Positions 2,679-8,783 of a DNA stretch of 9,965 nucleotides are shown here, one piece after another; within the stretch, counting starts at the first letter, position 1, and each line of letters opens with the position of its first letter. Made by a program: the position numbers and the translations under genes. The notes under the pieces are model-generated. The model was not told the DNA's origin and did no database searches. It saw only the letters and a list, made by a program, of their open reading frames with translations. This stretch comes from Deltaproteobacteria bacterium RBG_13_61_14 (GTDB lineage Bacteria; RBG-13-61-14): positions 52,918 to 62,882 of the forward strand of contig MGQK01000060.1 in the NCBI GenBank assembly GCA_001797815.1. Reading direction: 5' to 3'.

Positions 2679-4148
2679 CTACGGGCAGACGCCGGCGATC
2701 CGGGCAAAGTAGATCTCATCGTTCACTTCCCGGTAATCCGTCCAGCTCACCCCGAACTCGGACCCGGTCCAGGCCAGGTAGGGACTATAGCCATAACTCG
2801 GGTCGCTGGTCACCTGGAAATTAGACCCAAGCTTGGAGCCGGAAGAGGAGATCCAGGCAAAGTAAATATTTTCGTAACCGCTCAAGTAATCATAATCAGT
2901 CCAGCTCACCCCGAACTCGGACCCGGTCCAGGCCAGGGAGGGAGAATAGCTGGAACCCGCGTCGCTGGTCACCCGGAGGTCGGCTCCGAGCTTGGACCCG
3001 GAAGAAGAGAGGCGGGCAAAGTAGATCTCTTCGTTCCCGTCCTGGTTATCATACCAACTCACCCCGAACTCAGACCCGGTCCAGGCCAGGGAGGGACGAT
3101 AGCTACCATTCGCGTCGCTGGTCACCCGGAGGTCGGCCCCGAGCTTGGAGCCGGAAGAGGAGACCCGGGCAAAGTAGATCTCGTAGTTCCCGTCCCGGCC
3201 ATCCTGCCAGCTCACCCCGAATTCGGACCCGGTCCAGGCCAGGGAGGGAATATAGCTGTAACTCGCGTCGCTGGTCACCCGGAGGTCGGACCCGAGCTTG
3301 TCGCCGGAAGAGGAGAGCCGAGCAAAGTAGATCTCTTCGTTCCCGTCCCGGTTATCAGTCCAGCTCACCCCGAACTCGGTCCCGGTCCAGGAAAGGGAGG
3401 GAGAATAGCTACTACTCGCGGCGCTGGTCACCCGGAGGTCGGACCCGAGCTTGGCCCCGGAAGAGGAGATCCGGGCAAAGTAGATCTCGGTGTTCCCGTC
3501 CCGGTAATCCGTCCAGCTCGCCCCGAACTCGGTCCCGGTCCAGGCCAGGGAGGGATCATAGGCATTACTCGCGGCGCTGGTCACCTGGAGGTCGGACCCG
3601 AGCTTCTGGCAGGAAGGAGGACCAACCGAAGCGTTGCCATCATCGCAATCATTGTTTTTCAGATAGCCGTCCTGGTCAAAATCATTGGACTGCATGAAAG
3701 CCGTGAGCCATCGCGTGTCAACCCGGTCGGCTTTTTCAGCTTTTTCAGCTTTCAAGGCAAATGCCACGCTGGTGATCCGGGCGCGGGGCGTCATCTCCGG
3801 GTCGCTGTTCACCTGGACTCCCATCCAGACCTCGGCATGGTTCTGGAACACCCCGGCCAGGGTGGTTTCGGTGCCGGGCAGAATCCCGCCCGAGCCGATC
3901 AAGACGTTGTAAATGCCTTTTATAACCGGCACCCCCGGCTGGGTGACAGTGAGCAAAGGGGTGCCGCTCAATTCCGTGGGGTAGAAGGCGAAAGTCAGGT
4001 CCACGGTCACGCTGTCCAGCGGAATGCCGGCGGCATTGGTCAGCCGGCCCTGGTAGGCGATGAGCTCTGGCACGGACTGGCCGAGGGCGAGAAGCGAGAT
4101 CAGGATCAGGATGCCCGAGAGGATGAGAGAACGGCGCGCGGCTTTCAT
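2679..4148 (-). CDS. Secreted protein with MopE-type metal-binding motif and six beta-propeller-like repeats
   Basis: 489 aa. The start at 4148 is chosen because AAGGAGGAG lies just upstream and the N-terminus (MKAARRSLILSGILILISLL) is a clear signal peptide; the frame is open further upstream but without such support. Residues about 27-133 hold a domain often found in exported proteins (ELIAYQGRLTNAAGIPLDS near its start, ARITSVAFALKAE near its end), followed by a short AEKAEKAD stretch. Residues 156-175 read DFDQDGYLKNNDCDDGNASV, a DxDxDG plus DCDD motif as in MopE-type putative metal-binding proteins. Residues 182-489 are six repeats of 51, 51, 51, 51, 53 and 51 aa with the core AWTGSEFGVSW.D.RDG.EIYFAR, likely beta-propeller blades. 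The protein ends directly after repeat six, with no membrane anchor or sorting tail. Role unknown; surface binding or adhesion is inference. Confidence 0.88.
   Translation of the reverse strand: MKAARRSLILSGILILISLLALGQSVPELIAYQGRLTNAAGIPLDSVTVDLTFAFYPTELSGTPLLTVTQPGVPVIKGIYNVLIGSGGILPGTETTLAGVFQNHAEVWMGVQVNSDPEMTPRARITSVAFALKAEKAEKADRVDTRWLTAFMQSNDFDQDGYLKNNDCDDGNASVGPPSCQKLGSDLQVTSAASNAYDPSLAWTGTEFGASWTDYRDGNTEIYFARISSSGAKLGSDLRVTSAASSSYSPSLSWTGTEFGVSWTDNRDGNEEIYFARLSSSGDKLGSDLRVTSDASYSYIPSLAWTGSEFGVSWQDGRDGNYEIYFARVSSSGSKLGADLRVTSDANGSYRPSLAWTGSEFGVSWYDNQDGNEEIYFARLSSSGSKLGADLRVTSDAGSSYSPSLAWTGSEFGVSWTDYDYLSGYENIYFAWISSSGSKLGSNFQVTSDPSYGYSPYLAWTGSEFGVSWTDYREVNDEIYFARIAGVCP
2682..3605 (-). 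repeat. Six tandem coding repeats, 153-bp period
   Basis: The unit is 153 bp (51 codons), with one 159-bp unit (the fifth in the protein, 3-nt multiples preserved). Landmarks such as GAGCTTGG recur at 2988 and 3141, and the block reading CTCACCCCGAA on the plus strand appears in nearly every unit. Conservation extends to synonymous positions over stretches of about 25-30 bases, suggesting recent duplication or gene conversion. Variation concentrates in the YSPS-preceding positions and the residues around RDGN. Confidence 0.9.
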
Positions 4149-4203
4149 TGGCTCCTCCTTCGCTTGAATCCAAGATTTCAAGGGCCTCGAGAGAAACAAG
4201 GAA

Positions 4204-4231
4204 ACTCTACCAGACTCCTTAACCAAGTCAA
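4204..4231 (-). promoter_or_regulatory. Promoter of the repeat-protein gene
   Basis: On the minus strand TTGACT (4231-4226) and TAGAGT (4209-4204) are spaced 16 bp apart, placing the start of transcription about 50 bases before ATG 4148. The -10 sits in TGGTAGAGT, which also forms the -10 region in front of the acyl-CoA dehydrogenase gene. This supports the ATG at 4148 and argues that the gene is transcribed apart from hbd. Confidence 0.6.
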
Positions 4232-4261
4232 GCCAATGAAACATGGAACGATGAATCCGAT

Positions 4262-4284
4262 CCGCGACTGAAGCGCGGTCGCGG
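4262..4284. repeat. Short inverted repeat CCGCGAC/GTCGCGG
   Basis: CCGCGAC (4262-4268) and GTCGCGG (4278-4284) form a 7-bp stem with a 9-base loop in the gap between hbd and the repeat-protein gene. It has no T tract and resembles the other GC-rich palindromes of this window. Confidence 0.5.
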
Positions 4285-4316
4285 CTGCATTTTAATATGA
4301 CTTTTTCCTGATGTAG

Positions 4317-4354
4317 CCCACCCTTGTCCACAAGGGTGGGTTCCCCTGACACCC
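4317..4354. repeat. Hairpin repeat beside GGGTGTCAGG, just past hbd
   Basis: CCCACCCTTGT (4317-4327) and ACAAGGGTGGG (4330-4340) are perfect 11-bp arms around CC. They are followed by CCTGACACCC (4345-4354), the reverse complement of the GGGTGTCAGG found beside the 2071-2130 repeat. The element starts 4 bases after the hbd stop codon, so it could stabilise or end the hbd transcript, although no run of T follows on the minus strand. Confidence 0.7.
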
Positions 4355-4357
4355 TTG

Positions 4358-5212
4358 TCACCTTTTATATTCATACACCCCCCTCCCGGTCTTGCGGCCC
4401 AACCTGCCGGCGCGGACCAGCTTGACCAGCAAGGGCGCCGGCCGGTATTTGTCCCCCAGTTGGCGGTGCAGGCTCTCCACGCAGGCCAGCACCACGTCCA
4501 GGCCCGAGGCGTCCGAGGCGGCCAGCGGTCCCAGCGGGAAGCCCAGGCCCTTGACGCAGGACTTATCAATGTCCTCCGCGCTCGCCACCCCCTCTTCCAG
4601 CGCAAAAAAGGCCTCGTTCAAGAGCGGGATGTAGAGCCGGTTGATGACAAAGCCCGGAGCATCGTTCACCGTGACCGTGTCCTTGCCCGCGGCTTTCAGG
4701 AGCGCTTTCAGCCGGTCGTGAGCGGCGTCCGAGGTAGCAAGACCCCTGGTCACTTCCACCAAGGGAGTCAACGCCGCCGGGATCAGGAAGTGGGCGCCGA
4801 TACAGCGGTCGGGCGACTGCGCGGCGCCGGCGATCTCGGTGATGGAGAGGGTCGAGGTGTTGCTGGCTAAAATCGTCTCCGGCCGGGCCACTCGGTCCAT
4901 TTGCACAAACAGCTCGCGCTTGACCCCGATGTCCTCAAACACCGCTTCCACCACCAGGTCGGCCTCGCCGACCGCGGCCTCCAGCTCGAACACCGCCTGC
5001 AGGTTCGCGAGCGTCTGGTCCCGCAGCTCCGCGGCCAGCTTGCCCTTGCTCACCTGCTGCTCTAAAAAGTCCCGGACCTTCTTGCGGCCCTGCTCCAGGC
5101 GGTCGTGGTCCTGGTCAAACACATAAGTGGTGAAACCCGCCCGGGCAAAGACGATCCCGATCTGGCTGCCCATGGTGCCCAGGCCGATAACCGCTATAGT
5201 TTCTTTTGCCAT
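4358..5212 (-). CDS. hbd: 3-hydroxybutyryl-CoA dehydrogenase (3-hydroxyacyl-CoA dehydrogenase family)
   Basis: 284 aa, the usual length for stand-alone Hbd/PaaH-type enzymes. It interconverts 3-hydroxyacyl-CoA and 3-oxoacyl-CoA using NAD(P), in beta-oxidation or butyrate-type metabolism in the cytoplasm. Seen: the Rossmann glycine motif GLGTMG at 10-15 with VFDQD at 31-35 ending the second strand; LVVEAVFED at 86-94; [13 protein letters not shown] at 116-128; His141 and Glu153 at the 12-residue spacing of the catalytic dyad; [10 protein letters not shown] with Asn191, 50 residues after the His as in characterised homologues; and the C-terminal dimerisation domain, with [13 protein letters not shown] at the end. 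Oddity: the usual HFFNP around the catalytic His is HFLIP, and the following residues (AALTP) also differ. ATG 5212 is preceded by AGGAGGGCG. Whether it acts on C4 or other chain lengths cannot be read from sequence. Confidence 0.93.
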
Positions 5213-5337: not shown

Positions 5338-6702
5338 ATGCGCCCCGCTCAGGTGATGGCCGGGTTCGCCGGCGCGGGCTTTCTCCTCTACCTGCTCTAC
5401 CTGCCCGCGCTGAGCAGCCCCTTTCTCTACGACGACAACGCCACCATCTTGTATAACGCCCAGATTCAATCCGACTCGGTCCTGGAGGTGCTCTCCGAAG
5501 ACCCGTTCCGGGCTCTTCCCAACCTCACCTTTGCCGCCCAATATCACCTGCACTTCAACCCGGCCCTGAATAAGCCCCGGGCCCGGCCCTTTCACCTCGG
5601 GAACCTCTTTTTGCATTGGCTCAACGGGCTCGCCCTTTACGCGGTGCTCATCCGGCTGCGGCCCCGCTCCGGCGCCTTTGCCCTGGCCGCGGCCATGCTC
5701 TTCCTCGGACACCCGCTGCTGACCGAGGCGGTCAACTTTATCACCGCCCGCTTCGCCCTGATGGCCACCCTCGGCTACCTCCTGGCCGTGCGCTTCTATC
5801 TCCAGGCCGAAGAGCGACCCGGCCGCATGGTCCTCTTCTGGATCTGCTTTGCCGGCGCGCTCCTCTGCAAGGAAATCGCGGCCACCCTGCCCGCCACCCT
5901 CTGGATCCTCAACCGCCTCCGCCGCCGGCCGCAAAGACACCTGCTCCCCATCGCGATCGCTTTCCTCGCCTTTCTGGGCCTGCGCCTGAGCTGGACCATT
6001 ATCCTCGCCGCCCAGCCGGGCCAGGCCCTTGACCCGCTCCACTATTTCCTGATCCAAAACCGCGTGCTCTGGCTCTACCTCCAGAAATTCCTCTGGCCCA
6101 TCCACCTCAGCTTTGACTACCACCTCCCCTACCCTACCTGGTCCCTGGTCCTGTTCCTGCTCGCCAACCTCGCCGGCGCGGCCCTCTGCCTTTTTTACCT
6201 CCGCCGCGGCTCGGCCCCGGCCGGCGGGATCCTGATCTGGCTCATCCTCTTCCTCCCCACCTCCTCCGTCATCCCCCTCGCCGACCTGGCCAAGGAATAC
6301 CACGCCTATCTCCCGGCCGCGGCCGGCATCCCCCTCCTGGCCGCCGGCTTCTTCGCCGACACCCGCCGGCCGGCCTGGCGCAAAGCAGCCTTTGCCCTGG
6401 TCATGGTTTTTATGCTGGCCCTGACCTTCCACCGCAACTTGACCTGGCAGAGCGAAGCAAAGCTGTGGCGGGACGCGGTCACCCACGCCCCGGAGAAGCC
6501 CCGCGCGGTTTACAACTACGCCCAGACGCTGCGCCGGCAGCTCAAGCTCGAAAAGGCCCTGTTCTTTTACCGCCGCGCCCTTGAGCTGGACCCGACCGAC
6601 CTGCGCACCCTCCGGAACCTCGATCTGGTCGAACAAGCCTTGCACAGCCCGGACCTCGAACGCTGGAAAGAAGAACTGAAGCGGCGCCAGGCCCAAGAAT
6701 AA
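5338..6702 (+). CDS. TMTC-like multi-pass membrane protein with C-terminal TPR (GT-C glycosyltransferase-like)
   Basis: 454 aa. Seen: a first membrane segment at about 8-25; FLYDDNATILYN at 29-40, an acidic DD in the first external loop; NLTFAAQYHLHF; PFHLGNLFLHWLNGLALY at 84-101; ARFALMATLGYLLA at 137-150; LLCKEIAATLPATLWIL at 175-191; further segments at about 202-224, 268-288, 296-311, 322-340 and 349-364; LAKEYHAYLPAAAG at 317-330; and a C-terminal helical region (AVYNYAQTL, then LEKALFFYRRALELDPTD) that is one TPR unit. This order (YDD, FHL.N..LH, R...L, KE...LP, E..AYLP, TPR) matches the TMTC/DUF1736-related membrane proteins, several of which are GT-C O-mannosyltransferases using lipid-linked sugar. 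The bacterial substrate is unknown. The protein has a single TPR, few for this group. The ribosome site before ATG 5338 is weak (CGAGG, about 13 bases upstream). Confidence 0.8.
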   Translation: MRPAQVMAGFAGAGFLLYLLYLPALSSPFLYDDNATILYNAQIQSDSVLEVLSEDPFRALPNLTFAAQYHLHFNPALNKPRARPFHLGNLFLHWLNGLALYAVLIRLRPRSGAFALAAAMLFLGHPLLTEAVNFITARFALMATLGYLLAVRFYLQAEERPGRMVLFWICFAGALLCKEIAATLPATLWILNRLRRRPQRHLLPIAIAFLAFLGLRLSWTIILAAQPGQALDPLHYFLIQNRVLWLYLQKFLWPIHLSFDYHLPYPTWSLVLFLLANLAGAALCLFYLRRGSAPAGGILIWLILFLPTSSVIPLADLAKEYHAYLPAAAGIPLLAAGFFADTRRPAWRKAAFALVMVFMLALTFHRNLTWQSEAKLWRDAVTHAPEKPRAVYNYAQTLRRQLKLEKALFFYRRALELDPTDLRTLRNLDLVEQALHSPDLERWKEELKRRQAQE

Positions 6703-6793: not shown

Positions 6794-6823
6794 TTGCTTT
6801 TTTTGAGGGGGGTGTGGTAGAGT
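6794..6823 (+). promoter_or_regulatory. Candidate promoter of the acyl-CoA dehydrogenase gene
   Basis: TTGCTT (6794-6799) and TAGAGT (6818-6823) are separated by 18 bp. The -10 lies in TGGTAGAGT, the same 9-mer as in the promoter at 4204-4231. Transcription would begin around 6830, just before the palindrome at 6836-6857, leaving a leader of about 90 nt. Confidence 0.5.
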
Positions 6824-6835
6824 GAGTTTGGGGTC

Positions 6836-6857
6836 ACTGAATGAACGTTCATTCAGT
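6836..6857. promoter_or_regulatory. Perfect 22-bp palindrome, probable TetR-family (FadR-type) operator
   Basis: The 22 bases are a perfect palindrome centred between 6846 and 6847; the 18-bp core is TGAATGAACGTTCATTCA. It overlaps or directly follows the predicted transcription start of the acyl-CoA dehydrogenase gene, where a bound repressor would block transcription. From memory, the TetR-family regulator FadR of Bacillus uses TGAATGA-N4-TCATTCA sites released by long-chain acyl-CoA; this core matches both half-sites at the same spacing. The regulator gene itself is not in the window. Identity of the binding protein is inference. Confidence 0.75.
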
Positions 6858-6920
6858 CGCTTCCGCGGTCGGGTTTTTCAGGCATCCAGAACAAAAAATT
6901 CAGATAAAAAGGAGGTCGTC

Positions 6921-8783
6921 ATGCCAGGCGTATTGTTGGATGATCGGGATGTTCAATTCGTGCTCTGGGAACACCTGGGGGCCGAAAAGTTGTTCGAACA
7001 TCCGAGTTACAAGGAGTTCTCCAAGGACGACTGGACCATGATCTTGGGGGAAGCCCGCAAGTTCGCGGAGCAGGTGATTTTGCCGCTGAACGCGGAGGGC
7101 GACCACGAGGGGGTGCACCTCAAGGACGGGAAGGTCCAGGTGCCCAAGTGTTACCGGCCGGCCTACGACGCCTTCTGTGAGGCCGGCTGGGGCGCTCTTT
7201 CCAGCCCGCCGGAATATGGCGGCCAGGGCCTGCCCAACATCCTGGGCATCGCGGTGAGCGAATATTGCGTCTCGGCCTGCATCGCCTTCAGCATGTATAC
7301 CGGCCTGACCCGCGCCGCCGCGGACCTGATCCACACCTACGGCACCGACCCGCAGAAGCAAAAATATCTGCCCAACATGATCGCGGGCAAATGGGGCGGC
7401 ACCATGTGCCTGACCGAGGCCGGGGCCGGCAGCGCGGTGGGCGACCTCAAGAGCACGGCCAAGAAGCGGCCCGACGGCACCTTTAGCATCTCGGGCAGCA
7501 AGATCTTCATCTCCTCCGGCGACCACGACCTGGTCGAGAACAACATCCACCTGGTCCTGGCCCGGGCCGAAGGCTCGCCCCCCGGGATCAAGGGCATCTC
7601 CCTCTTCATCGTGCCCAAATACCGGATCAAGCCCGACGGCTCGCTCGGTGAGTTCAACAACGTCGAGTGCCCCAAGGTGGAAGAGAAGATGGGCATCCAC
7701 GGCTCGGCCACCTGCGAGCTGCTCTTCGGCGACAAGGGCGAATGCATCGGCGAGCTCATCTTCGAGCTGAACAAGGGCATCGTGGCCATGTTCCAGATGA
7801 TGAACGAGGCCCGGATCGGCACCGGGCTCCAGGGCCAGGGCTGCGCGGCCGCGGCCTACCAGCTCGCGCTCAAGTATGCCAAGGAGCGGGTGCAGGGGGT
7901 GGCCATCGAGAACATGCGGGACGTGAACGCGCCCCGGGTGGAGATCATCAAGCACCCGGACGTGCGCCGCATGCTCCTGTCCATGAAGGCCATGACCGAA
8001 GGCATGCGCGCCCTCATCTACCGCGGCGTCTTCTGCAACACCCTGGCCGAGCTCGCCTCCGACCCCAAGGAAAAGGAAAAGTGGGAGGATCTGCTGGCGC
8101 TGCTCACTCCGGTGATCAAGGCCTACTGCTCGGACCAGGGCTTTCTGGTCACCCGCGAGGCCATGCAGGTCCTGGGCGGCTACGGCTACTGCACCGAATA
8201 CAAGGTCGAGCAGCATATGCGCGACGCCAAGATCAGCTCCATCTACGAGGGCACCAACGGCATCCAGGCCCTCGACCTGATCGGCCGCAAAGTCCTCGAC
8301 GTCAAAAAACAGATGCGGCCTTACAACGAATTCATCACCCTGGTCAAGGACACCATGGCCAAGGCCAAGGGCAAGGACGGTCTCGACCCCTGGCTCGATA
8401 AAGTCATCGCCGCCACCGACTCGCTCGACAGCGCCACCAAGCACCTGATGACCCTCGGTCTCAAGGGCGACCAGTCCGCCCCGGTGCTGGCCGCCACCCC
8501 TTACCTCACCGCCTTCGGCCACCTCTGCCTGGGCTGGCTCCTGGGCGAGCAGCTCATCCTCGCCACCCAAAAGCTCAACGCCCTCTTTCAGGAAAAGGGC
8601 GCCAAGGACGACGCGGCCAAGAAAAAGGTGGTCGAGTCCTTGAACGAGGCCGCCTTTTACCTGGGCAAGATCCACTCCGCCAAGTTCTTTATTGACTCGG
8701 TTCTGCCCGAGGTGGACGCCATCGGCGCTTACATCAAAACTAACAACCGCGATCCCATCCTCATCCCGGAAAACGCTTTCTGA
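6921..8783 (+). CDS. Acyl-CoA dehydrogenase, long DmdC-like type
   Basis: 620 aa, longer than the roughly 380 aa of classical acyl-CoA dehydrogenases and typical of the DmdC/FadE5-like group with an extra C-terminal domain. It is an FAD enzyme introducing the 2,3 double bond into acyl-CoA. Seen: an N-terminal helical domain with WGALSSPPEYGGQGLP at about 90-105; MCLTEAGAGSAVGDL at 162-176 and ISGSKIFISSGDHD at 190-203, the flavin and substrate loops; VEEKMGIHGSATCEL at 253-267; MMNEARIGTG at 293-302; QVLGGYGYCTEY at 416-427; and ISSIYEGTNGIQALDLIGRK at 438-457 with Glu443 at the catalytic base position. The region from about 460 is the extra C-terminal domain. Start ATG 6921 is chosen for AAAAAGGAGG six bases upstream; the open frame reaches back across the operator and is not credible as coding. 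The substrate is uncertain: fatty acyl-CoA or 3-methylthiopropanoyl-CoA. Confidence 0.95.
   Translation: MPGVLLDDRDVQFVLWEHLGAEKLFEHPSYKEFSKDDWTMILGEARKFAEQVILPLNAEGDHEGVHLKDGKVQVPKCYRPAYDAFCEAGWGALSSPPEYGGQGLPNILGIAVSEYCVSACIAFSMYTGLTRAAADLIHTYGTDPQKQKYLPNMIAGKWGGTMCLTEAGAGSAVGDLKSTAKKRPDGTFSISGSKIFISSGDHDLVENNIHLVLARAEGSPPGIKGISLFIVPKYRIKPDGSLGEFNNVECPKVEEKMGIHGSATCELLFGDKGECIGELIFELNKGIVAMFQMMNEARIGTGLQGQGCAAAAYQLALKYAKERVQGVAIENMRDVNAPRVEIIKHPDVRRMLLSMKAMTEGMRALIYRGVFCNTLAELASDPKEKEKWEDLLALLTPVIKAYCSDQGFLVTREAMQVLGGYGYCTEYKVEQHMRDAKISSIYEGTNGIQALDLIGRKVLDVKKQMRPYNEFITLVKDTMAKAKGKDGLDPWLDKVIAATDSLDSATKHLMTLGLKGDQSAPVLAATPYLTAFGHLCLGWLLGEQLILATQKLNALFQEKGAKDDAAKKKVVESLNEAAFYLGKIHSAKFFIDSVLPEVDAIGAYIKTNNRDPILIPENAF

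Follow-up and report, generated by a model that had tools for sequence, protein, structure and literature searches.

The window, that is, the whole 9,965-nt stretch of DNA analysed here, contains on its plus strand a gene (6921-8783) for an acyl-CoA dehydrogenase of 620 aa, in which Pfam identified the domains Acyl-CoA_dh_N, Acyl-CoA_dh_M, Acyl-CoA_dh_1 and the long C-terminal domain PF12806. A well-matching ribosome-binding site (RBS, AGGAGG) is located ahead of this gene at 6910-6915 on the same strand. The minus strand carries a gene for a DUF3604 protein (2-2194), which is truncated at the border of the window, an open frame for a 560-aa protein with internal repeat segments and no Pfam match (2679-4361), and a 3-hydroxyacyl-CoA dehydrogenase gene (4358-5212), the end of which is overlapped by the 560-aa frame by 4 nt. 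At 6836-6857, 63 nt upstream of the acyl-CoA dehydrogenase start codon, lies ACTGAATGAACGTTCATTCAGT, which is a perfect 22-bp palindrome, as the sequence-only reading had claimed, with two 100% complementary arms of 11 nt and no spacer (0 nt) between them; its core is TGAATGA-ACGT-TCATTCA (6838-6855). We annotated it, with no strand assigned, as a predicted FadR operator and the acyl-CoA dehydrogenase gene as the predicted regulated gene, based on half-sites that are invariant in orthologous promoters and common to 53 exact sites at FadR loci. No further TGAATGA-N4-TCATTCA was detected in the window with up to three mismatches allowed.

A probable promoter, assigned tentatively by our own reading, precedes the palindrome on the plus strand (6794-6823) and consists of a -35-like TTGCTT (6794-6799), an 18-nt spacer and an extended -10 element TGG-TAGAGT (6815-6823); similar TTGC...TGCTAAAA elements are present in both related genomes (G001 and G002). 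The reading suggests that transcription of the dehydrogenase gene starts near 6830, in which case the palindrome would span roughly +7 to +28. The earlier statement that the palindrome sits at the predicted transcription start was roughly right in this respect, although a strict sigma-70 consensus scan returned no promoter. Since the likely -10 element ends 12-14 nt ahead of the operator, a bound repressor would cover the first transcribed bases.

The whole genome (4.74 Mb, 132 contigs) was scanned both with the pattern, allowing up to three mismatches, and with a 22-position sequence model derived from 26 sites of many genomes. TGAATGA-N4-TCATTCA matched exactly at two places, which share the identical 18-mer TGAATGAACGTTCATTCA; the reversed-pattern control gave 0 exact matches in the same genome, and about 0.02 matches would be expected by chance for 14 fixed bases (our own arithmetic). 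The sequence model again retrieved only the same two sites from this genome, which is 95% complete, so that assembly gaps in the estimated ~5% missing could conceal a site. The sole other exact copy (C92:36363-36380) has the same 18 letters, including the central tetramer, and is situated after a TTGACA-17 nt-TAAAAA promoter, at the 5' end of a TetR-family gene (G000:C92:36396-37007, with GTG at C92:36396 as the most likely start) that is followed by etfB and etfA. Two checks proposed with the sequence-only reading, a search for other motif copies near lipid genes and a search for a TetR gene bearing the same site, both led to this lipid-oxidation locus, the TetR-etfB-etfA operon.

Judged by its sequence and modelled fold, the TetR-family protein encoded on C92 is an orthologue of FadR, and is the FadR-like TetR protein anticipated elsewhere in the genome, whose activity as a repressor is assumed by analogy. 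In a sequence comparison with the PDB it matched FadR of B. subtilis best (122 bits, 2.5e-34), followed by the B. halodurans FadR (121 bits), and the TetR ranked after these reached 60 bits. B. subtilis FadR also shares, without any difference, the segment VADGTIYLYFKNK of its DNA-binding domain. A fold search with its AlphaFold2 model (pLDDT 90.8) returned Bacillus FadR at all of ranks 1-13, with query-normalised TM scores of 0.80-0.85, and 3whc, the FadR-stearoyl-CoA complex, is among the fold matches. Pfam assigned the protein to TetR_C_4 'YsiA-like' (PF08359; 84.7 bits, cut-off 21), YsiA being an older name for FadR, and to TetR_N (57.7 bits, cut-off 24). The NCBIfam FadR equivalog NF053878 scored 190.4 bits, just under its curated cut-off of 200, and the next family 67. 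In a phylogenetic tree, several inner forks of which are poorly resolved, the Bacillus FadRs nest within the orthologue group of the C92 protein (support 94/87), and the genome's 14 other TetRs branch separately from it.

These 14 proteins bear on a different reading of the palindrome, namely that it is the operator of another of the 15 TetR regulators of the genome and that FadR is uninvolved. TetR operators have similar half-sites, and an apparent MerR-TetR fusion on C56 has a degenerate upstream site, TGAATGAAGCATCGTTCT. We regard this reading as improbable, since the only other exact copy, which has the same four central bases, is found right at the FadR gene, the exact motif is confined to genomes with a FadR orthologue among the 60 surveyed, and all of the other 14 TetRs fall outside the FadR group in the tree. 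The C56 protein (L006:5480-6418, equal to C56:20479-21417 of this genome) comprises 312 aa, beginning with a MerR DNA-binding domain and ending with a TetR domain, the latter half being FadR-like (82.7 bits); its gene adjoins an FMN oxidoreductase gene on the opposite strand, with TGAATGAAGCATCGTTCT lying between the two.

Orthologues of the dehydrogenase (64% identity each) were found in G001 and G002, the two other genomes of the phylum that were compared, which belong to the same order, and each of these genes is preceded, at a distance of 92-103 nt, by an exact TGAATGA-N4-TCATTCA. When the three promoters were aligned, both heptamers proved invariant in surroundings that are mostly not conserved. 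Less closely related dehydrogenase orthologues, in G045 (C84) and G037 (C64), likewise have exact sites upstream, and a further dehydrogenase promoter of G037 (C157) contains the site with a single mismatch; presence of the palindrome in the orthologous promoters of relatives, the third check proposed beforehand, extends accordingly from G001 and G002 to more distant genomes. Conservation also refutes a chance origin of the palindrome. Among 200 shuffles of the window, 27 contain a pattern match at up to three mismatches, but the palindrome agrees exactly over 18 bp with the copy at fadR, and neither half-site varies in G001 or G002, which leaves this explanation hardly any credibility. In G001, the FadR protein (L113:1450-1800), which is the closest orthologue (63%), has no operator before its own gene and the site at the dehydrogenase gene is kept, so that autoregulation seems to have been lost there. 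G001 and G002 each have one more exact site (L065:635-652 and L072:1501-1518), which follows an AMIN-domain gene and precedes spoVG by about 315 nt; no tRNA was found at these two sites, and the spoVG-upstream site is absent from the genome studied here.

The pairing of regulator and motif was followed across bacteria. A FadR orthologue at 37% identity or more is encoded in 15 of 60 genomes, and the exact motif was found in 11 of the 60, every one of which belongs to these 15 (hypergeometric p ~4e-9 by our own arithmetic, the related genomes not being fully independent); the reversed motif was found in none of the 60. Of 80 named orthologue loci, 74 had enough upstream sequence for a search over 250 nt, which revealed an exact motif in 51 and a single mismatch in 8 (59/74 at 0-1 mismatch); of 1,214 control windows taken from these loci, none matched at 0-1 mismatch. 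FadR loci totalling 561 kb contain 53 exact sites, at least 51 of which are at the TetR gene, and etfB is also present in 33 of the 44 full-length loci. According to their titles, the locus records span Deltaproteobacteria/Desulfobacteraceae, Myxococcota, KSB1, Calditrichota, Dadabacteria and Zymogenaceae. At the 53 exact sites, promoter-like hexamers reached a mean of 9.4 of 12, compared with 7.8 in shuffled sequence, and in most cases 0-8 nt separate the end of the -10 element from the operator, so that a bound dimer would cover the transcription start.

These data also weigh on the reading of the palindrome as an RNA hairpin, for instance a structure in the leader or a terminator of the upstream gene, which ends at 6702. 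The transcript of a perfect inverted repeat can fold on itself, and the repeat here is probably inside the transcribed leader. The palindrome is nevertheless A+T-rich, lacks a spacer and is not followed by a T-run, the motif copies elsewhere lie mainly at or just past the -10 element with fixed half-sites and four free central bases, and the distribution of the motif tracks that of the TetR protein; a hairpin is consequently very improbable. In other genomes, motif-bearing promoters precede genes for thiolase, 3-hydroxyacyl-CoA dehydrogenase (FadB-like), EtfB, long-chain acyl-CoA dehydrogenases (ACADs) and an AMP-forming, acetyl-CoA-synthetase-like acyl-CoA ligase. One genome, G026, has an exact FadR site (L067:1501-1518, at G026:C41:25387) 90 nt upstream of a gene for a molybdenum enzyme that is close to ethylbenzene dehydrogenase (2ivf, 2.4e-129), and FadR control of anaerobic hydrocarbon hydroxylation is possible in this organism.

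We therefore interpret the palindrome, with high confidence, as the operator of the FadR (YsiA)-type TetR repressor encoded on C92, which would control the dehydrogenase gene and its own fadR-etfB-etfA operon and would be released by acyl-CoA. By analogy with Bacillus FadR, a FadR dimer would bind the TGAATGA/TCATTCA half-sites just downstream of the dehydrogenase promoter and block transcription, and would likewise block the fadR promoter, which would also drive etfB-etfA. Accumulating long-chain acyl-CoA would bind FadR and cause it to leave the DNA, upon which the dehydrogenase and its ETF would be produced together. Blocking of RNA polymerase is the most likely mode of repression, since the operators would lie at the transcription start or the first transcribed bases.

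The expectation that the regulon could be mapped from this single motif held for two promoters, those of the dehydrogenase and FadR-ETF, but a broad beta-oxidation regulon did not emerge, the genome yielding 61 near matches at up to three mismatches vs 55 with the reversed-pattern control. Neither the pattern scan nor the 26-site model produced a convincing target in this genome beyond the two exact sites, and no site was found at most of its other beta-oxidation genes, including the other ACAD genes, or at the 3-hydroxyacyl-CoA dehydrogenase gene of the window. Several sites with two to three mismatches were inspected individually. Those on C122 and C39 were rejected because they fall within a reading frame or at its margin, and that on C99 as a TGAC-type palindrome resembling the sites of other TetRs; those on C56 and C24 were not accepted either, the near-match list being hardly richer than the reversed control. 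A regulon made up of the dehydrogenase and FadR-ETF makes sense, since acyl-CoA dehydrogenases pass their electrons to ETF. Several beta-oxidation operons under the motif are typical of Bacillus-type FadR systems, but such regulons differ in size, and their extent is no defining trait of the regulator.

The switch is almost certainly one already known from Bacillus, encountered here in an uncultured, deltaproteobacterium-like lineage. On balance, we slightly favour the view that regulator and operator have been conserved as a pair, almost to the letter, in several phyla (those in the record titles listed above and Bacillota) and that the regulon has shrunk here to the first oxidation step, i.e. 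one acyl-CoA dehydrogenase and its electron carrier. The proposed control would provide a beta-oxidation gene with a regulator and a trigger in a lineage known so far here only from metagenome-type genomes. More widely, a simple 18-bp motif flags candidate FadR regulons in numerous uncultured bacteria with TetR genes that would fall short of being named FadR specifically. What stands out most is how slightly the operator differs between phyla, and this near-perfect conservation makes FadR a useful case of a regulator and site that stay matched while the targets change.

The FadR that controls fatty-acid degradation in E. coli is of the GntR type and thus a member of a different protein family. 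The closest counterpart of the present system is that of Bacillus, the operator of which we read from actual sequence records. In a B. subtilis record with fadR, an enoyl-CoA hydratase gene, etfA, trxA and uvrC, TGAATGAATAGTCATTCA is located immediately upstream of fadR, which bears out the half-sites TGAATGA/TCATTCA and the spacing that the sequence-only reading had given for Bacillus; a TetR-etfB-etfA locus of Paenibacillus has TGAATGAGGATTCATTCA at the equivalent place before the TetR gene. The B. subtilis record NZ_CP035408.1 (L197), which is labelled as a plasmid, carries the chromosomal-looking genes fadR, etfA, trxA and uvrC and is probably a chromosome fragment. According to a review, B. 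subtilis FadR represses five fad operons, including lcfA-fadR-fadB-etfB-etfA, is inhibited by C14-C20 acyl-CoAs and is released from DNA by long-chain acyl-CoA (PMC4525379). The C92 protein and B. subtilis FadR (YsiA) belong to the same TetR subfamily and share the fold, with ~37% identity in the fold alignment and an identical VADGTIYLYFKNK; the two systems also have in common the operator half-sites and their spacing, the fadR-etfB-etfA linkage and a site at the regulator's own gene. They differ in the host, which is Gram-negative-type and uncultured here, in the PF12806-type dehydrogenase of the present genome, and in extent, the motif finding two promoters here compared with five operons in B. 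subtilis.

Among the other TetR-type regulators, FadR2 of the deltaproteobacterial sulphate reducer Desulfococcus multivorans is likewise a TetR-type FadR encoded beside etf genes, its neighbours being etfAB and fadF, and was detected specifically in cells grown on myristate (C14); unlike in the present system, no operator is reported for FadR2 in the passages of that study consulted here (PMC5109826). FadR of Thermus thermophilus is also a TetR-family regulator of fatty-acid degradation, but its operator is TTRNACYNRGTNYAA and it is only a remote match to the C92 protein (36.6 bits) (PMC5597230). PsrA and FadP of Proteobacteria, which again are TetR-family proteins controlling fatty-acid degradation (PMC5343134), represent other lineages, and the NCBIfam PsrA family scores only 26.9 bits on the C92 protein.
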